Shown here: positions 3,419 to 45,402 of the stretch, one piece after another
Position numbering within the stretch: the first letter of the stretch is position 1
Layout of the letters: every line of letters begins with the position of its first letter
Assembly (NCBI RefSeq): GCF_003151135.1
Contig: NZ_QEQK01000014.1
Coordinates: forward strand, 1-64,000
Length of the DNA: 64,000 nt
Direction of reading: 5' to 3'
DNA from: Abyssibacter profundi
GTDB lineage: Bacteria > Pseudomonadota > Gammaproteobacteria > Nevskiales > OUC007
Program-made: the position numbers and the translations under genes
The notes under the pieces: generated by a model
Databases searched by the model: none
What the model saw: the letters and a program-made list of their open reading frames with translations, nothing else
What the model was told of the DNA's origin: nothing

Positions 3419-3721
3419 AGGTGAATTCCGCAGGGAGCGATGGTGGCAGCGTAACCGAGCCGCCAGCCTGGGGTGAAGCCTGTTGAATCCGCCTCCACTT
3501 GGCCGGTTGTGGGAATCTTCTGCCAACCGGCTGATTTGTCGGGGTAAACGGCGAGCTTGGCGGTATCTTTGCGTGTAACCAAATCGTAAAGTTATCGGTG
3601 AACGCCTGACATCGCATCGGGCGGCGTTCCGGAATCTTGCGCCGGAACCGACAACATCATCCTTCACAAAACCGCAGCCAGTCGGCCAGGCCGACAGTGT
3701 GGCTGCACGGAGAACTTGGTC
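3419..3721. promoter_or_regulatory. Divergent intergenic region with an 8-bp inverted repeat
   Basis: These 303 bases separate the minus-strand amidohydrolase operon from the plus-strand M36 protease, so they must hold both promoters. An inverted repeat GCCGGTTG (3502-3509) / CAACCGGC (3534-3541) with 24 bases between the arms is the only clear structure. I see no convincing -35/-10 pair and no gene. GGAGA at 3709-3713 is the ribosome site of the protease. Confidence 0.4.
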
Positions 3722-6700
3722 ATGGGGTTCGCTATTCGTCCTTTCGCGGCGGTGCTGTCTGCCAGTGCCGCCCTGCTCATGTCTGTGCCAGTAGCGCAGG
3801 CTTCGGAACCGCCGTCACAGGACGTGACCGCGCCCACCAACATCGGCGACACGCTGGTGGTCGAATGGACCGGCACCGCCCTGGCGGGAGCCAGCGGTGC
3901 GGCCACCAATGCCTGTACCCAGGGGACCGACGATTCACATGACATCGTCCTGGCCCTGCCTGACGACTACTACGATGGTCGCTCGCTCATCGCGGACTTT
4001 CATATCGAGTGGCCGGTGGGCACCAATGTCGGCATCGTCACCGACCCCGATCTGGTCCTGACCGTCTTCCAAGATGGCGCGGCGTTGGGATCCAGCGATG
4101 GCGGGTCGCCGGAGGAGAACGTTCGCGTGGTCGACCCCGCGGCAGGGACGCTGACGGCGGTCGTCTGCCCCTTTTTCGCCAGTGCGACGACAGATTACAC
4201 CGCGAGCCTGACGCTCACCGTCGAGGGTGAGGCGGCCTGCGTCGCAGCGCCGACCAAGGCCATTGCGGCGGCATCACCCGTGCCCGCCTCCAGCGGTGCC
4301 ACCGGTCCGGAAACCTTGCGCATCCGCAACTTCGACAAGTTCCTGGCCGAGGACGCCACCAGTCTATCCGCCGTGCCGACCACGGGATTTGCGGGTCGGC
4401 TGCAGCACGCCCAGTTTGATCGTCAGTTGGGCGTGCCGACGTTCCTGTGGGCCGAAGCCAATGCGCCCAGCGCCTCTGTGGGCGCGCTTGCCAGCGACCG
4501 AGACATCATGATCGCCAAGGCGCGTGCGCATCTACGGCACGAGTCCAAGCTGCTCAATCTGACGGATGCGCTCATCGATGAAGCCGAGGTCAGCTTCGCC
4601 GGCTTTAACGGAGCGGGCCCGGCTGTCGTACGTTTCCGCCAGCGGGTGGGAGGCCTGGAAGTCTTCCAGCGCTATATCAATGTGCTGCTGGACCGCAATC
4701 TGGATCCGGTGGCGGTGTCGGGTTACTTCGCGACCGCGTTCGATCCGGTCGAGGTCGCCAATCACAGCACCACGCGCTCGGCGGCCCAGGCGATTGCCGC
4801 GGCCTGGGGCACGTTGGGTGGCGTGATAAACGTCCTGGATCTTGTGCCCGAGGAGATCGACGGCGAGTACACCTGGTTCTCGCTGCCCGCCCTGTCGGGT
4901 TCGCATGCGCTGGAACGACGTCCCCGCGTGCGGTCCATGTACTACCCGCGGGCCAACACGCTGGAACCGGCGTTCTATGTCGAACTGTTCAGCCGCACCC
5001 GTTCCGGTGGTGCGCTGAGCGCGTTTGCCTTTGTGGTCTCGGCGCAGACCGGCGAAATTCTGCATCGCAAGAACCTGGTGAGCGATGCCACGTTCACCTA
5101 CCGCGTGTTTGCGGACACGGTGGCGCCCTTCACGCCCTTTGACTCCCCGCTTGGCAACGAGCAGACACCCTTCCAAGGTGCCGGGCCCGATGTCGAGGTC
5201 CCGCGCATCCCGGCATCCGATGTGCTGGTGACGCTGGAGTCCGGTCCCATTAGCACGGGTGATCCGTGGCTGACGGAAGACGCCACCCAGACCATTGGCA
5301 ATAACGTCGAGGCCTGTATCGATGCGGTCGATACGCCGGTGTCGGGCATCATTTCCAACCCGCTGAACATCTGCACCGAGATCACCCAGGACACGCCGGA
5401 TATCTACGCACCGACTAACGGTGAGCGGACATTCGACTACACGGTGACACCCGATGGCGACCCCAGCGAGCAGGAAGCCCAGTACGGTGCCATCGTCAAC
5501 ATGTTCTACATGGTCAACTGGATGCACGACTGGTGGTACGACCATGGCTTCGATGAGCAGTCGGGCAATGCGCAGATGGTCAACTACGGACGGGGCGGGG
5601 CCGAGGGTGACCCGATCCTGGCCCAGGGCCAGGATGCCTCTGGCCGTAACAATGCCAACATGGCAACGCCGGCTGACGGTTCGTCGCCGACCATGCAGCA
5701 GTACCTGTTCGATGGCGAACTCAACGGCGAGGTCAAGCAGCTGACGCCGGAGGAACTGGAGTCGTTCAACTTCACCGGCGCTTCCTTCGGGCCATCGACC
5801 TTCGATGTAACCGGCACGGTCGTCCCGGTTAGCGATGGCGTGGGTGATTCCGATACCGATGGCTGCGGCCTGACCGATCCCCTGCTGGGCCTGGTCAGCA
5901 CGCCGGGCGTGCCCCAGCCGAGCCTGGCGGGCAACATCGCCCTGGTCGATCGCGGTGGCTGTGCGTTCACGACCAAGGCGCAGTTCGCACTGGTCTCGGG
6001 CGCTTCGGCCATGGTCGTGGTCAACAATGTGGACACGGCTCCGATCACCATGGGGAACGGCGATGTACCGATCGTGCCGGTGCCGACCAGTCCGACGGAT
6101 CCGCTCTATCAGATCCCCTCGGTGATGATCAGCAAGGCCGATGGCCAAATCATCAAGGACAATCTGGCGGCCGGCGAGGTGACCATGCGTGTCAACCGCG
6201 AGGAATCCATCGACTCCGACGGCACGCTGGACAACCAGATCATCGCGCATGAGCTGTTCCACTACGTGCATCACCGGCTGACCGACTCCAGCAACCAGCA
6301 GGCTCGCGCCATGTCCGAGGGCTGGGGCGACATCAATGCCTTCATGCTGTCGGCCCGGGCGGATGATGCCAACGCGCCGTTCAACGAGAACTATTCCGGT
6401 GCCTATTCACTGGCCGGCTATGTGACGCACAACTTCTGGTCGGGAATCCGTCGTGCGCCGTACTCGACTGAGTTCTCGCGTAATGCCTTCACCTTTAAGC
6501 ACATTGCCGATGGTGAGCCGACGCCGGATGGTGGCGATGGGGCCACGAACTCGGCCGTGCACAGCTCGGGGGAAATCTGGGCCAACATGATGTGGAACTG
6601 CTACGCCGGTCTGATCAACGACCCGCGACACAGCTTCGACGAAGCCCAGTCCCGGATGAAGGACTACATCATCGGCGGCTTCAAAATGACGCCGGCCAAC

Positions 6701-7042
6701 GCGACGTACACAGAAGCCCGTGATGCCGTGTTGTCGGTGGTCCTCGCCAACGACTACCAGGACTTCGAAGCCTGCTCCAATGGCTTTGCCGAGCGCGGCG
6801 CTGGCCTGTTCGCCGTGTCACCATCGCGTGACAGCGCCGATCATGTCGGCGTGGTGGAGGACTTCACACCGTTCGTCTGCGAAGCCAGCCAGGGCGGTGG
6901 CGATGGCGGCAGTGACGGCGGGGACCGCGTCGCGCCGACCGGGTCCAGCGGCAGTCTGGGTCTGGGCGTGCTCGGGGTCTTGTTGCTGATGAGCCTGCTG
7001 TTCACCGGGCGTCGATTCTCGCAGTCGCGTTTCAACATTTAA
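3722..7042 (+). CDS. Secreted M36 family (fungalysin) zinc metallopeptidase with PA domain and GlyGly-CTERM-like tail
   Basis: This protein has 1106 residues. The ATG at 3722 is preferred over the TTG at 3716 because GGAGA lies eight bases before it. The order is a signal peptide (to about AQA-SEP), a beta-rich domain, an FTP-type propeptide region around residues 230-480, the M36 catalytic domain with HELFH at about residues 843-847 and EGWGD from about residue 866 (third ligand Glu), and an inserted PA domain around 715-825 (VDRGGCAF, MVVVNN). A Gly/Asp-rich linker, GSSGSLGLG, a hydrophobic helix and a basic end follow, resembling GlyGly-CTERM without the canonical GG pair. It should be exported, self-processed and anchored or released at the cell surface to degrade proteins. 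It stands alone between a divergent operon and a terminator. Confidence 0.93.
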   Translation: MGFAIRPFAAVLSASAALLMSVPVAQASEPPSQDVTAPTNIGDTLVVEWTGTALAGASGAATNACTQGTDDSHDIVLALPDDYYDGRSLIADFHIEWPVGTNVGIVTDPDLVLTVFQDGAALGSSDGGSPEENVRVVDPAAGTLTAVVCPFFASATTDYTASLTLTVEGEAACVAAPTKAIAAASPVPASSGATGPETLRIRNFDKFLAEDATSLSAVPTTGFAGRLQHAQFDRQLGVPTFLWAEANAPSASVGALASDRDIMIAKARAHLRHESKLLNLTDALIDEAEVSFAGFNGAGPAVVRFRQRVGGLEVFQRYINVLLDRNLDPVAVSGYFATAFDPVEVANHSTTRSAAQAIAAAWGTLGGVINVLDLVPEEIDGEYTWFSLPALSGSHALERRPRVRSMYYPRANTLEPAFYVELFSRTRSGGALSAFAFVVSAQTGEILHRKNLVSDATFTYRVFADTVAPFTPFDSPLGNEQTPFQGAGPDVEVPRIPASDVLVTLESGPISTGDPWLTEDATQTIGNNVEACIDAVDTPVSGIISNPLNICTEITQDTPDIYAPTNGERTFDYTVTPDGDPSEQEAQYGAIVNMFYMVNWMHDWWYDHGFDEQSGNAQMVNYGRGGAEGDPILAQGQDASGRNNANMATPADGSSPTMQQYLFDGELNGEVKQLTPEELESFNFTGASFGPSTFDVTGTVVPVSDGVGDSDTDGCGLTDPLLGLVSTPGVPQPSLAGNIALVDRGGCAFTTKAQFALVSGASAMVVVNNVDTAPITMGNGDVPIVPVPTSPTDPLYQIPSVMISKADGQIIKDNLAAGEVTMRVNREESIDSDGTLDNQIIAHELFHYVHHRLTDSSNQQARAMSEGWGDINAFMLSARADDANAPFNENYSGAYSLAGYVTHNFWSGIRRAPYSTEFSRNAFTFKHIADGEPTPDGGDGATNSAVHSSGEIWANMMWNCYAGLINDPRHSFDEAQSRMKDYIIGGFKMTPANATYTEARDAVLSVVLANDYQDFEACSNGFAERGAGLFAVSPSRDSADHVGVVEDFTPFVCEASQGGGDGGSDGGDRVAPTGSSGSLGLGVLGVLLLMSLLFTGRRFSQSRFNI

Positions 7043-24405: not shown

Positions 24406-27400
24406 ATGGGAATTCGAATTTCGGGCATGGGCCCGCGTGCGGCTATTGCCGCGTTGTTATTAGGGGCTGGCGCTCAGGCGCAGGCCCAGGCGCTGCCCTG
24501 TGCAGCAGAAGGCGACGAGCTGGTGCTGCATGAGTGGTCCGGGGTCGCGCCTTCGGCGGCGGGCGGACTGAATGCCGCACAGACGCGGGAAGCCTTGCCC
24601 GCGCTGGATTGCGCCTACGATGCGCTGGATGTCGTCGTGAGCTGGGACAATGTCATCGAGGATCTTGACCTCGATGTGGTTGATGAGCGGCAGTTCGTCG
24701 TGGCCAGCTCCGGCAAGTTCAATGCGGAAGACGATGGCACGGGGCCGGCTTTCGAAGCTGCGACGGTTGGCTCGCCGGTTGGCGCCTACACCGCCGTCGT
24801 CAAGAGCTACACCAACTACGACACCGCGTTCACGGCCAGCGCCACGGCCCGCTGTACCACGGCGGGTGGTTGTTTCGCCCCGGTGACCACACAACCGAGT
24901 TTCGAGGAGGAAACCCGGGTGGTGGTCGCGGTGATCGACAGTGCGATCAACCTCTACCACAGCTTCTACTATGCCGGCGGTGAGGGGTATCCGAACTCGG
25001 CGCCACAGGGGCTCTCCGACGATATGCTCGTCGAGCTGGGCGTCCCGCCCGAGAATGTCTTCGAACTGACCCGTACCGGCACGCTGGCCGAGCGCATCGC
25101 CGCTGACCAGGAGCGGGTCTGGGACAAGATCGAGCGCGGTCAGCGCTACTACTTTGTGGGCACCAATGTCGTTGCCCAGTCGTTTGCTGGCAACGATGAC
25201 GATGGCAATCCGCATCCGCTGCTGGTACCGACCACCGACAAGAGTCCGCATGGTGTTGGGACCAGCTCGGCCGTGCTCAAGGCCAATCCGGAAGCGGTGA
25301 TCCTGTTCCTGGAGACCGAAGGCGCGCTGGCCAACGATGCCTCGCATGTGGCCGCTTTCCGCGATCCGGCTGTCGACATCATTTCGACGAGCTACGGCAT
25401 CGGGGCCGCTGGTGTCTTCCCGCCCGAACTCTGGAGTTTCCACCAGAGCTTCAAGAGCGTGGTGTATGACGGCAAGCTGCACTTCTCGTCCGGTGGCAAT
25501 GCCCCGGGCTTTACGCCGGGTCGTGCCGGCGCGGGTCCGTGGTGGTCCATCGGTGTGTCCGGGTCGGAGGAAGATACCTCCAACGGTCGCACAACGGTCT
25601 CCGGCAACCTGCCCGATTTCATCTCCGACTTCACCCAGGACCTGGCCCGGTGCATGGACTGCGTGACCGGTCTGGCACCCTATGGCGGCACCAGCTTCTC
25701 CACGCCGCGCGCAGCGGGTGTGGCATCCAAGGTTCTGCTGGAAGCGCGCCGCGCACATGGCCACCTGGGCGGGATCAAGAAGGTCGATAATGTGCCGTAC
25801 ATGGTGCTGGCTGATGACAGCGTCGGCGAGTTTGATCTGACGAACTGGATTATCCGGCGCTCGCTCGAAGAGGCCGCGTACGTCCCGACGGTGGATGACT
25901 ACGACCCGGTTGCTGCGGTGCTGGACGATCTGGGCGCACAGCCGATTAATCCCGTCGCCCCCTGGTTGCAGACCGGTTGGGGTGACCTGACCGCAGCGCC
26001 AACCCGAGGCGTGGTCAATGCGGCCTTAACGCATCTGGGTCTGGCGGCCTCGCCGCGGGTGAAGCCACAGGATTTCTGTCAGTTCCAGACCACCTTGGTG
26101 CAGGAGCGCAAGCTGTACTGGGATACGCTTTCGCCGCTGGTTCCCGCCGTAGGCCTGGGGGATCGTTCCGAGCCGCTGGACGACGATCCGTTCATCTACT
26201 GTGACTCCGGCCTGCCCGCGCCGTATCCCGCCGCTAACGATCCGGGTGGACAAACCTACGATCCGGCTGGTGACTTCGATGGTGACGGCGTCTCGAATGC
26301 AGACGACGAATGCCCCGAAGACCCGACGAATGACTGCGCGCCGGATACCGACATCGACGACGATGGTATCGATGACGCGGACGACAACTGCCCCACGGTG
26401 CCCAACGCCGACCAGCGTGACACCGGTGATGACGGGGTGGGTGATGCCTGCGAAACCGGCCCAACCTCGGATGCACCGCCGACTGGGGGTCGCAATGAGG
26501 TCGCCCGCTATGAAGGTCCGGGCGCAACGGTCGTCACGCCGGTGGTCGGCCTGGGTGCAGGGTCTGGCTCCGACGGTTTCGCGACCAGCGAGTACCGCTA
26601 CCAGTTGCCGGGTGCGTTCGAGTACGACCTGATCGAGTTCACGCTCAGCGCCACGCAGGGCACCCAGCACTCCATGCGAATCTACGGCCCTGACGGCAAC
26701 TTGGTTGCCATGGAAGGTCCGGACTTCTTCGCAGGTGAGTTTGGCAGTGAACCGTTGAGTGATGGCGAGTTGCACGTCAGCCTGGCCACGCCGCCACAGG
26801 GTCTGTACCTGATTCAGATTCAGGAGCAGCTGGGCGCGGCCAATCAGCCGTTCACGGTCACCGTCCACGTCACCTGTCCCGAGACGGGTTGCGTCCTGGT
26901 GGACACCGACGGCGACGGCGTGCCGGATGTCAACGACGCCTTCCCGAACGATCCCACAGAGACCCTGGACAGCGATCAGGATGGCGTGGGTGACAACGCC
27001 GACCCCTGTCCTGAGGACCCGGCGGATGAATGTGGCGCCACCAATGGGGCCGCACCGGGCGATGTGTTCGTCGTCATCTCCCATCTCGTGGGCGAAGACG
27101 GCCTGACCGTGGCCTTCGACGCCAGCGCTTCGTACAAGTGTGCGTCAGCCTGCGAATCCGAGCTGAACCACCAGCCGCTGGAATCGCCGGAGTTCACGTT
27201 CTTCTTCCGGGATGACACGACGGGAGATGTCAACGCAGCGACCTTCGATGCGGATGGAGATGGCCTGATCACGCATCGCTATGGTGCGGCGGGCACGTTC
27301 CGCCCCGACGTTGTGGTGCGTGACGCCAATGGCAACGCCGCGGCCGGCTCGACGGAAGTCACGACGACCGTCACCGTGGATGCCGGGGAGCGGCCGGTTG

Positions 27401-27807
27401 AGAACGCCGCACGCCTGGTGGTCGATTACGATCGTGCCAATCCTGTGGTGCCGTTGGAGGTGGTCTTCGATGCCACGCTGACGACGGTGGCCGAAGGCTT
27501 CACCATCACTGGCTACACCTTCGACTTTGATGATGGGACGGTGATCCAAACCGACAACGCCATCGTGCAACATGTCTACGTGACGGCCGGAACCTACGAA
27601 CCGGAGGTCACTGTCGAGTTCACGGATGGCGATGGTGCCCAGCAGTTCTCCTCCGCCAAGTCGCAGGCGGTACAGGCCAGCGCATCGGGCACGAACGACG
27701 TGCCGTCGAGCCGCTCGGGTGGCGGGTCAGGTGCGCTGGGCGGCTGGCTGCTGCTGTCGCTCATGGCGTCGGGCCTGCTCCGGCGTCGGATGCGTCCCGC
27801 GGTCTGA
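24406..27807 (+). CDS. Secreted S8 (subtilisin-like) serine protease with TSP3 and PKD repeats and GlyGly-CTERM tail
   Basis: This 1133-residue protein starts at an ATG after GGGGAG. The signal peptide ends near AQAQA. The S8 triad is present in order: Asp in VAVIDSAIN (about 184), His in SPHGVGTSS (about 285) and Ser in GGTSFSTPRAAG (about 430). Next come Ca-binding thrombospondin type 3 repeats (DGDGVSNADDECP, DDDGIDDADDNCP, about 625-685), a jelly-roll, PPC-like domain (about 690-825), another TSP3 pair, two PKD-like domains (about 885-1095) and the tail GGGSGALGG, Leu-rich helix and RRRMR. It should be exported, sorted by a rhombosortase and displayed or released to degrade external protein. 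It stands as a single gene with its own terminator. The tail matches the partial protein at 2-169. Confidence 0.92.
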   Translation: MGIRISGMGPRAAIAALLLGAGAQAQAQALPCAAEGDELVLHEWSGVAPSAAGGLNAAQTREALPALDCAYDALDVVVSWDNVIEDLDLDVVDERQFVVASSGKFNAEDDGTGPAFEAATVGSPVGAYTAVVKSYTNYDTAFTASATARCTTAGGCFAPVTTQPSFEEETRVVVAVIDSAINLYHSFYYAGGEGYPNSAPQGLSDDMLVELGVPPENVFELTRTGTLAERIAADQERVWDKIERGQRYYFVGTNVVAQSFAGNDDDGNPHPLLVPTTDKSPHGVGTSSAVLKANPEAVILFLETEGALANDASHVAAFRDPAVDIISTSYGIGAAGVFPPELWSFHQSFKSVVYDGKLHFSSGGNAPGFTPGRAGAGPWWSIGVSGSEEDTSNGRTTVSGNLPDFISDFTQDLARCMDCVTGLAPYGGTSFSTPRAAGVASKVLLEARRAHGHLGGIKKVDNVPYMVLADDSVGEFDLTNWIIRRSLEEAAYVPTVDDYDPVAAVLDDLGAQPINPVAPWLQTGWGDLTAAPTRGVVNAALTHLGLAASPRVKPQDFCQFQTTLVQERKLYWDTLSPLVPAVGLGDRSEPLDDDPFIYCDSGLPAPYPAANDPGGQTYDPAGDFDGDGVSNADDECPEDPTNDCAPDTDIDDDGIDDADDNCPTVPNADQRDTGDDGVGDACETGPTSDAPPTGGRNEVARYEGPGATVVTPVVGLGAGSGSDGFATSEYRYQLPGAFEYDLIEFTLSATQGTQHSMRIYGPDGNLVAMEGPDFFAGEFGSEPLSDGELHVSLATPPQGLYLIQIQEQLGAANQPFTVTVHVTCPETGCVLVDTDGDGVPDVNDAFPNDPTETLDSDQDGVGDNADPCPEDPADECGATNGAAPGDVFVVISHLVGEDGLTVAFDASASYKCASACESELNHQPLESPEFTFFFRDDTTGDVNAATFDADGDGLITHRYGAAGTFRPDVVVRDANGNAAAGSTEVTTTVTVDAGERPVENAARLVVDYDRANPVVPLEVVFDATLTTVAEGFTITGYTFDFDDGTVIQTDNAIVQHVYVTAGTYEPEVTVEFTDGDGAQQFSSAKSQAVQASASGTNDVPSSRSGGGSGALGGWLLLSLMASGLLRRRMRPAV

Positions 27808-42260: not shown

Positions 42261-43736
42261 TCAGTCCACGCTGTTAACGGGCCGCACATGTCGATCGCTA
42301 TCGACCAGGGCGAAGGTCACCGCCTCATGGTCGAGTGGGCTGCGGCCGACCGGGCCGGTGAGGTCGAAGACCAGCTTGCGGTCATCCCAGGGGTCGGTGC
42401 CCCAGCCGCGCTCGAGAATTTCGATGGTGTCGCCCTGGACCTCGATGTAAGCGTAGGAGACATTGTCGCTGTCGTCGGTCTCCAATACGTAACCCATCTC
42501 GTCCACGATGGAGCGCACCACGTAGCGCCCATTCGGATTGCCGTCGAACTCCACGTACATGCCGGGTCGCTGCCAGCGGTAGACGTCGCCCCAGCCCACC
42601 GACAGGCCGATGGTGCCCGCCGTGGGTGAAAAACAGTTGTCCAGCGGGCTGTCGCCACCGGGGGTTTCATAGCCCTGCTCGAAGGCGTACCAGTTGCCGA
42701 ATAGCTGGTCGGCTGGGCAGAACCCGGACTTGGTTCCCAGCCCCGCCGCCACCAGCGCGCCCAATTCGGTGTCGGTCACTTGGTAGAGCTCGAACTTCAA
42801 GATGAAGTCGTCGTGGAAGTGGACGTGGATGGGATGAAAGGAGTACGTCCCGGCCGGTCGGGCGGTCTGGCTGCCGTCCGTCCAATGCACCACCTGGGTC
42901 TTGGGCCCGATAATCGTGCGGGAAAGCAGCTCATTCGGTGCGATTTCGGTTTCTCCGGCCAAGGTGTCGGCCAGCAGCTCGAAGCGCATGTCATAGATAC
43001 CCTGGCCCACATTGACCGGCCCTGAGGTAAAGCGCAGGCAGCGTATGGCGCCTGCGCCCCCAATCTCCACGGGGGCGGCTTCATCGACACTACAGGAGAT
43101 GGGCTCGATGCCAGCCACCGACAGCGGCGGATTGACGGTGTCAGGCGGGTACAGTCCATTGAGTGGATTGGCGGGCGCGACGAACCCGAATTCGTAGGGG
43201 GGCACCGTGCGCAGATTGGGGAGCAGCGGTTCGGGATCAGCGGGTAAAGCCGGGCTGACCGTCAGCGCCGATTCCAGCTTGGCGCGCATGCGAAAGCTGG
43301 CGTAGGTGGCATTGTCGGGCCGGATCTGAACCCGCCAGAGGCCGGCGGTGGGTTCGTCAATCAGGACCTCGGAGTTGAACTGGTTGAAGTTGTCATCTTC
43401 GCCCGCCAGGCTGCCGTCGGGAGCAAACACGTGGATACCAAAGCTGTCTGTTCGCTCGGGCGTATCCAGCCCGATACGCAGGCGCTTGCCGCCGGGTGCC
43501 ACGTCGAGCAGGTAGCTGGGACAGGCCAGATACGTGTCGCATAGCGACAGGCTGGGCACCTGGCCGTTTAGTGTTTCGCCCTCCCAAAACCAGGCTTCGT
43601 CGATATCCAGCACCGCATCCAGCGTGGCCGCGGGCGGGACGCCGGTCTCGTCCGTGGTATCGGCCTGCGGGCCGCCCGAGCAGGCGTAGCAGAGCAGCAA
43701 AGGGGTCAGGCTGAGCCCGAGTCGGCTGGGTCGCAT
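42261..43736 (-). CDS. Lysyl-oxidase-like lipoprotein
   Basis: This 491-residue protein starts at an ATG after GGGAG and has a lipobox (LLLCYAC, Cys about 19). Residues about 45-165 form a PPC-like beta-sandwich (GKRLRIGLDTPERTDSFGIH, WRVQIRPDNA). The C-terminal half is a copper-dependent lysyl oxidase domain. HPIHVHFHDDF (about 298-308) gives the copper His cluster. Lys336 in GTKSGFCPADQ aligns with the Lys that forms the LTQ cofactor, Tyr386 in GDVYRWQ aligns with the Tyr partner, and GRYVVRS with DDSDNVSYAYI matches the final block. Such enzymes oxidise primary amines to aldehydes. The protein should sit on the outer membrane or in the periplasm. It follows an amidase lipoprotein gene by 70 bases on the same strand. 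Confidence 0.85.
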   Translation of the reverse strand: MRPSRLGLSLTPLLLCYACSGGPQADTTDETGVPPAATLDAVLDIDEAWFWEGETLNGQVPSLSLCDTYLACPSYLLDVAPGGKRLRIGLDTPERTDSFGIHVFAPDGSLAGEDDNFNQFNSEVLIDEPTAGLWRVQIRPDNATYASFRMRAKLESALTVSPALPADPEPLLPNLRTVPPYEFGFVAPANPLNGLYPPDTVNPPLSVAGIEPISCSVDEAAPVEIGGAGAIRCLRFTSGPVNVGQGIYDMRFELLADTLAGETEIAPNELLSRTIIGPKTQVVHWTDGSQTARPAGTYSFHPIHVHFHDDFILKFELYQVTDTELGALVAAGLGTKSGFCPADQLFGNWYAFEQGYETPGGDSPLDNCFSPTAGTIGLSVGWGDVYRWQRPGMYVEFDGNPNGRYVVRSIVDEMGYVLETDDSDNVSYAYIEVQGDTIEILERGWGTDPWDDRKLVFDLTGPVGRSPLDHEAVTFALVDSDRHVRPVNSVD

Positions 43737-43806: not shown

Positions 43807-45402
43807 TCAGGGGGGCGGGTCGCCCGGCAATGCAGGGCGCCGGCGGTGCAACGTGGCTTGCTCGTAGGCGTAGGCCAGGGTGAACAGGGTCGATTCATCC
43901 CAGCGTCGGCCGAAGAATTCAATGCCGACCGGGCGGGCTGGCGTGTCGCCTGTGAAGCCGGCCGGCACCACGATGGACGGCATGGCCGTGGTGCTGCCAA
44001 ACGCGCAGTTGTCGGTTTGGGCCTGGCCGGTGGGCTGGGCCGCATTCTGAACCGGTGGGTAGACCAGGGCATCCAGGCCCAGGCTGTCGAGCTGGCCCTC
44101 GACGTACTCGCGCACGGCTTCGCGCTGGGCCAGCAGGTCCTGGTAGCGCGTTGAACTGGTGTCGCGCAGCAGCAGGCTGGCACCGACCAGCGCCTCGATG
44201 AAGGGATGGACGAGGCCGCTGGCAAACACCTCCTCGGTGTTCGCGCGCGGGGCATCGAAACTGGCGAGATATTCGTCCAGGTGGTCGGCAAACTCCTGCA
44301 CGATGAGCGTCTTGGAAATGTCGACAAAGTCGGGCAATTCGACGGGATCAACGATCTCCGCACCGAGAGCGGCAAGATCGGCGAGTGCCTGGTCCATCAC
44401 GGCGTTGATGTCGGCGTCGTCACCAAATGCATCGGTGCCCCCATAGCTGCGCAGCACACCAATGCGCCGGCCCGCCAGCCCTTGGGCATCCAGCGCATCG
44501 ACATAACTCGCAGGCTGATAGCGATCGGGCACCTGGGTGCGCGGATCGGCAGGGTCAGCCCCGGCCATCGCATCGAGCATCAGAGCGGCGTCGCGCACGC
44601 TGCGTGTAATCGGGCCGCCCACATCCATGGTGTGCGACAGCGGGACCAGACCATCCTGCGACACCAGCCCTACGGTGGACCGTACGCCGACCAGGCTGTT
44701 GTTGGCCGGTGGCAGGCGGATCGACGCGCAGGTATCTGATCCGGTGCCGATTGCGCCGAAGTTGGCTGCAATCGCGGCAGCCGTTCCGCCGCTGGAGCCA
44801 CCAGCATCCAGGCTGGTGTCATAGGGCAGGCCGATGCGCTGGCTGACGCTGTTAAAGCTCTGCGTCCAGTAGGCGTATTCGCTCATGCCGGCCTTGCCCA
44901 GGATCAGGGCGCCGGCGGCGCGAAGGCGTGCCACCGTGAAGGCGTCATCTGGTGGTTGGGAGCCTGCCAGCGCCAGTGATGACGCGGTGGTGGGAAAGTC
45001 GTCAGTGTCGTACAAATCCTTGAGGATGACCGGGACACAGTGCAAGGGACCAACAGGGCCGGTCGCTGCATAGGCATGATCCAGCGCTTCAGCCTGGGCC
45101 TGCCACTGCGGGTTGAGACTGACCATGCTGTTGATGGGCAGCCCGGTGTCCACGTGATTGTCCAGGGTCTCGATACGCTGCAAATAGCGCTCTGCCAGTT
45201 CGACGCAGCGTAGCGGCTCGCCGTCTGCATCTACCTGTTCACCCCGCCAGGCCGCCTGAATGTCTTCAATGCGGGCTTCGAGCAGTTCAAACGGGACGGG
45301 CTCGCTGACGGTGCCGGATTCGCCGGTCGGAGAGGAGGGGCCGCAGGCCGCGAGCAGCAGCGAGCAAAGGGGCAAGCACAGGCAAATCGGGCGTGATGGC
45401 AT
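43807..45402 (-). CDS. Amidase-signature family lipoprotein
   Basis: This protein has 531 residues from MPSRPIC with lipobox LLLAAC (Cys about 20); 13 earlier in-frame codons are not signal-like. The amidase signature is present: VILKDLYDTD (catalytic Lys), GGSSGGTAAAIAANFGAIG (cis-Ser) and GSDTCASIRLPP (nucleophile Ser; Gly-Gly in many members is Cys-Ala here). It hydrolyses an amide bond outside the cytoplasm. The lipoprotein location suggests a peptide or other external amide rather than the GatA role. It is followed by the lysyl-oxidase-like gene and is probably in the same transcript. Confidence 0.92.
   Translation of the reverse strand: MPSRPICLCLPLCSLLLAACGPSSPTGESGTVSEPVPFELLEARIEDIQAAWRGEQVDADGEPLRCVELAERYLQRIETLDNHVDTGLPINSMVSLNPQWQAQAEALDHAYAATGPVGPLHCVPVILKDLYDTDDFPTTASSLALAGSQPPDDAFTVARLRAAGALILGKAGMSEYAYWTQSFNSVSQRIGLPYDTSLDAGGSSGGTAAAIAANFGAIGTGSDTCASIRLPPANNSLVGVRSTVGLVSQDGLVPLSHTMDVGGPITRSVRDAALMLDAMAGADPADPRTQVPDRYQPASYVDALDAQGLAGRRIGVLRSYGGTDAFGDDADINAVMDQALADLAALGAEIVDPVELPDFVDISKTLIVQEFADHLDEYLASFDAPRANTEEVFASGLVHPFIEALVGASLLLRDTSSTRYQDLLAQREAVREYVEGQLDSLGLDALVYPPVQNAAQPTGQAQTDNCAFGSTTAMPSIVVPAGFTGDTPARPVGIEFFGRRWDESTLFTLAYAYEQATLHRRRPALPGDPPP

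Follow-up and report, generated by a model that had tools for sequence, protein, structure and literature searches.

Lysyl oxidases (LOX) of bacteria that carry the copper and LTQ residues were surveyed and published in 2015 by Grau-Bove et al. (PMC4448552). The one characterised prokaryotic LOX, HTU-LOX of the archaeon Haloterrigena turkmenica (PeerJ 2019), is described, in the part of that account drawn on here, as a Cu-dependent, BAPN-sensitive amine oxidase which acts broadly on small amines and is cryptic in its host (PMC6452851). A sequence-only reading of the present locus had considered LOX to be mainly animal enzymes with scattered bacterial homologues, a view rendered outdated by the 2015 survey and by the PF01186 matches in 33 of the 296 Actinomycetota genomes sampled here. 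As bacterial LOX have been published and an archaeal LOX is active, the enzyme class encoded at this locus is not new; the variant is, in its subfamily, its varied surface signals and its pairing with an amidase.

The LOX-like gene (P0001) is encoded on the minus strand of the window, the 64,000-nucleotide stretch of Abyssibacter profundi DNA that was analysed. It was delimited by its ORF, ribosome-binding site, PF01186 match and a 12-member alignment; the ORF spans exactly 42261..43736, starts with ATG, is preceded by GGGAG approximately 8 nt upstream and codes for a protein of 491 aa. A genome search with PF01186 identified it as the single LOX gene of its genome. The protein is predicted to be exported and to comprise an N-terminal beta-sandwich domain and a C-terminal LOX domain. 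The catalytic region, defined by Pfam and the alignments, covers residues 168-461 (42354..43235, minus strand), with PF01186 matching a core at residues 294-440 with 22.4 bits against a curated cut-off of 20.4 (22.7 bits in the genome search), while an NCBIfam search of the protein gave no match. A profile of the subfamily recovers many Pfam-recognised LOX genes, the best at E 6.9e-25 (in the actinomycetotal genome G725), as well as a gammaproteobacterial LOX (L019) at E 1.9e-17, and the latter matches human LOXL2 (5ze3) at E 8.2e-12, so that every link in this chain of homology is significant. Searched directly against the PDB, the subfamily profile reaches LOXL2 at only E 0.89 and the protein alone returns chance matches only. 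AlphaFold models built from a seven-sequence alignment have a pLDDT of 39.7 for the full protein, in which only the N-terminal domain is moderately confident, and 35.7 for the catalytic domain alone, both being of low confidence and unusable over the catalytic domain; with the poor model, Foldseek finds LOXL2 5ze3 at only E 2.4e-3.

The catalytic residues were placed by means of two alignments, one of 12 subfamily sequences (relatives from the order and named genomes, 48-79% identity) and a wider one of 57 rows, comprising the 12 subfamily members, 43 more distant sequences, a few being fragments, and two human sequences, LOX and the LOXL2 chain of 5ze3. The numbering of the human LOX sequence used reproduces H289, K320 and Y355 of PMC4448552. 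The predicted copper site, H301-P-I-H304-V-H306-F-H308 (42813..42836, minus strand), aligns with HSCHQHYH of human LOX and HDCHRHYH of LOXL2, with H304, H306 and H308 sharing columns with the copper histidines of both. Lys336 (42729..42731) and Tyr386 (42579..42581), both on the minus strand, are predicted to be the LTQ lysine and tyrosine and fall in the columns of human LOX K320 and Y355, which hold Lys in 51 and Tyr in 54 of the 57 rows, respectively. Together with H301 and the three copper histidines they are unchanged in all 12 subfamily sequences. The closing block (E419, D424 and N425) is likewise conserved, and the core cysteines C340 and C368 are kept in 53 and 55 of the 57 rows. The copper-His cluster, both cofactor residues and the closing block proposed from the sequence alone are thus borne out by the alignment, and the displacement of Lys336 or Tyr386 from the LTQ positions, named beforehand as a refutation, did not occur. 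Because of the gap that separates GWGDVY from the domain end, Tyr386 had been a candidate for lying off the LTQ column, which is ruled out as this residue aligns on it. The protein is very probably a divergent lysyl oxidase, that is, of the exported copper amine oxidase class, judging by these alignments. In the Actinomycetota, three LOX proteins have an absent or shifted LTQ lysine (D in L078, E in L081 and one residue off in L055) and keep the Cu histidines and the tyrosine; possibly these are inactive or differently matured enzymes, or else they reflect local misalignment.

The N-terminal domain (residues ~37-155; 43272..43628, minus strand) was outlined from AlphaFold secondary structure and weak Foldseek matches as PPC- or jelly-roll-like. 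The moderately confident model of this domain weakly resembles the beta-sandwiches of Tk-SP and ColH CBD3 (Foldseek, E 4e-4 to 1e-3), whereas a Pfam search that included PF04151 (PPC) returned no match; the earlier description of a PPC-like domain is therefore weakly upheld at the level of the fold and not by Pfam. It is preceded by a signal peptide (43680..43736, minus strand; from sequence and alignment) ending in a degenerate lipobox, LCYAC, with Cys19; judged by eye, the Cys at -3 is off the usual pattern. Two genus mates (L010 and L011) have the canonical lipobox LSAC, and the putative lipoprotein signal is clearer in these relatives than in the window protein itself.

Other members in the order have C-terminal tails that are Gly-rich, hydrophobic and then Arg-rich, resembling GlyGly-CTERM, a tail type which is absent from the window protein. 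In Vibrio cholerae, proteins with a GlyGly-CTERM are processed by rhombosortase so that they become attached to the surface (PMC6219818); this enzyme scores over cut-off in 10 of the 11 LOX-bearing genomes of the order. The GlyGly-CTERM model TIGR03501 gives 13.8 and 9.4 bits for order relatives, below its cut-off of 15.5, and no match in four others tested. The actinomycetotal L017 terminates in LPRTG followed by a membrane stretch and Arg, scoring 15.5 bits with the LPXTG anchor model TIGR01167 (cut-off 15.9), and no anchor was seen in the other Actinomycetota members. As these scores fall short of, or do not reach, the curated cut-offs, the C-terminal tails are only suggestive, and the same strength applies to the variety of lipobox, GlyGly-CTERM-like and LPXTG-like signals as a sign of surface targeting. 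Two further large exported proteins are encoded on the plus strand of the window; by eye, one is an HExxH-type peptidase containing a PA-like segment (3716-7042) and the other a subtilase-like protein bearing calcium-repeat as well as PKD-like segments (24406-27807). Both have GlyGly-CTERM-like tails (Gly-rich, hydrophobic, Arg); a TIGR03501 search of the genome listed just one other site, on contig C7.

The window belongs to a genome of Salinisphaerales/Nevskiales type close to Abyssibacter, and the nearest relatives bearing a name are an Abyssibacter MAG and an uncultured Salinisphaerales MAG. The subfamily sits at or below the Pfam threshold and is common to the Nevskiales/Salinisphaerales and some Actinomycetota. 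PF01186 matches occur in 11 of the 85 genomes of the order and in three of 369 in a sample of the class, the window's own included, while the subfamily profile matches the window's own genome alone among 398 drawn from the phylum. The same profile matches 24 of the 296 Actinomycetota genomes, five of which (G450, G457, G515, G532 and G693) are outside the PF01186 list, the matches in G515 and G532 being weaker or partial. A scan of viral contigs for the LOX-like family found none. In the tree, the 11 sequences from the order form one group (99/97), adjoining the actinomycetotal L017 (98/93), and together these lie within a 15-row group (100/100), the remainder of which are Actinomycetota rows. 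The human LOX/LOXL2 pair is far from the subfamily. The simplest reading is a transfer of LOX from the Actinomycetota, in a tree that is unrooted and with L017 being a MAG contig. Two actinomycetotal genomes, G529 and G725, contain approximately six and five LOX-domain matches, respectively, an expansion of the family.

Directly upstream of the LOX-like gene and on the same strand, an amidase-signature lipoprotein with the lipobox LAAC (43807..45402; PF01425, 284.6 bits) is encoded, as the sequence-only reading had recognised. Its stop lies 70 nt before the LOX-like start, and the catalytic residues of a Ser-Ser-Lys triad (Lys128, Ser203/204 and Ser227) are present. Scans for promoters and terminators did not rise above chance level. 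An amidase is found directly upstream and co-directional in six of the 11 LOX-bearing genomes of the order, three of the window's genus (G000, G061 and G062) and three of another family (G065-G067); a link confined to the genus was accordingly rejected. Three unrelated genomic contexts contain the pair, in each case with the amidase upstream and both genes on the same strand, and when the loci of the window, L091 and L092 were compared over ~14-30 kb, LOX and amidase were the only common genes; L013 has the gene order of the window. The adjacent amidase is dispensable, as there is none in the remaining five LOX genomes of the order or in the Actinomycetota loci examined. The LOX-linked amidases fall into two clades, which a 100/100 branch separates and which both retain the catalytic Lys-Ser-Ser; the amidase tree contains long branches that meet at one node, and the two-clade split is independent of that join. 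In G065, the closer relative of the window amidase (L090, 68% over the aligned part) is located elsewhere and is not linked to LOX. The pairing may have arisen twice, the partner may have been replaced, or an ancestral tandem pair may have been thinned, and each of these origins implies a long-kept association of amidase and LOX. This recurrence gives the amidase link a better basis than the sequence-only reading had and supports functional coupling, short of proof; it amounts to moderate evidence, since it comes from only two or three effectively independent lineages. The LOX-free relative G064 was considered as an insertion or deletion site and set aside: it encodes a similar amidase, but the flanks of that gene have nothing in common with those of the linked locus. 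Another relative, G013, carries some ten or more amidase-signature genes packed closely together (contig C5, 963975-1028221).

We consider it probable that the gene codes for a surface-held divergent LOX, an LTQ amine oxidase which in part of the order acts with the upstream amidase, although the cooperation of the two enzymes, taken by itself, is given slightly less than an even chance. By homology, copper on His304, His306 and His308 would drive oxidation of Tyr386, which would become cross-linked to Lys336 to yield the LTQ quinone. Once mature, the enzyme would oxidise primary amines beyond the inner membrane, with an aldehyde, ammonia and hydrogen peroxide as products. In some members of the order, the exported amidase would cleave an extracellular amide and release an amine, which the oxidase may then dispose of or gain nitrogen from, with both the substrate and the order of steps presumed. 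What the sequence shows is that the protein belongs to the LOX family, has the catalytic residues and export signals, and is recurrently paired with an amidase; the most likely role is that of a surface copper/LTQ amine oxidase handling amidase-released amines. More speculative, and rather doubtful, is a mobile two-gene surface system in which amidase and LTQ amine oxidase strip and then oxidise the amines of extracellular amides in place, assembled more than once or with its amidase replaced.

The enzyme could instead detoxify or scavenge free amines such as polyamines, taurine or amine-bearing antibiotics without the amidase, its adjacency being incidental. The oxidation of taurine, cadaverine, polymyxin and aminoglycosides by HTU-LOX, given in the part of the source used here (PMC6452851), and the five order genomes without linkage are in keeping with this, but adjacency recurs with different flanks and with two amidase clades, and we regard such an amidase-independent role as unlikely. 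Still less probable is the oxidation of lysines in surface or matrix proteins, a cross-linking of envelope or biofilm comparable to that of collagen by the animal enzymes. Surface-type anchoring signals in several lineages and the acceptance of lysine-containing polypeptides by HTU-LOX, again from the portion of that report drawn on (PMC6452851), speak for cross-linking; however, no gene for a structural or lysine-rich substrate was found linked to LOX, whose recurring partner is an amidase of the small-molecule type, and Grau-Bove et al. judge bacterial collagen cross-linking to be unlikely (PMC4448552). Cross-linking is possible but less supported than amine handling. A non-catalytic copper-binding surface protein with a retained LOX fold might be suggested by the divergent sequence, the marginal Pfam score and the actinomycetotal homologues without the LTQ lysine, but is most improbable given that Lys336, Tyr386 and the Cu histidines are invariant across 48-79% identity.

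Taking the surface amine oxidase paired with an amidase as the preferred interpretation, a partner gene that recurs across genomes, together with conserved targeting to the surface, would provide a concrete substrate route for a prokaryotic LOX, in a family partly missed by Pfam, and would bear on what LOX did before animal matrix building. The two-gene surface system would, if true, give bacterial LOX a first ecological role. With the GlyGly-CTERM/rhombosortase proteins (PMC6219818) the order relatives share tails of similar make-up (Gly-rich, hydrophobic, Arg-rich) and the presence of rhombosortase in their genomes, whereas the window protein has no such tail and those of its relatives reach 9.4-13.8 bits at best against 15.5. 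Human LOX and LOXL2 (5ze3) have the same copper histidines, LTQ Lys/Tyr and closing ESDxxNN-type block but occupy a distant branch of the tree, and neither SRCR domains nor a propeptide are found in the window protein. HTU-LOX likewise comes from a prokaryote and shares the key residues; it differs in being archaeal and in its upstream region, with no amidase partner reported in the part of the source drawn on, and is not included in the trees here. Among the closest described relatives, the prokaryotic LOX of Grau-Bove et al. (PMC4448552) share the copper HxHxH core, the LTQ Lys/Tyr, export and a sporadic distribution across phyla that suggests transfer. The equivalent of human H289 is missing in bacteria according to that survey, whereas a His (H301) occupies this position in 12 of 12 subfamily members; the same His is present in L010, L011, L002-L009 and other bacterial LOX, including L057 and L076. 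While the proteins of the survey mostly comprise the LOX domain alone, the subfamily described here is marginal to Pfam and keeps an N-terminal beta-sandwich together with surface-type signals.
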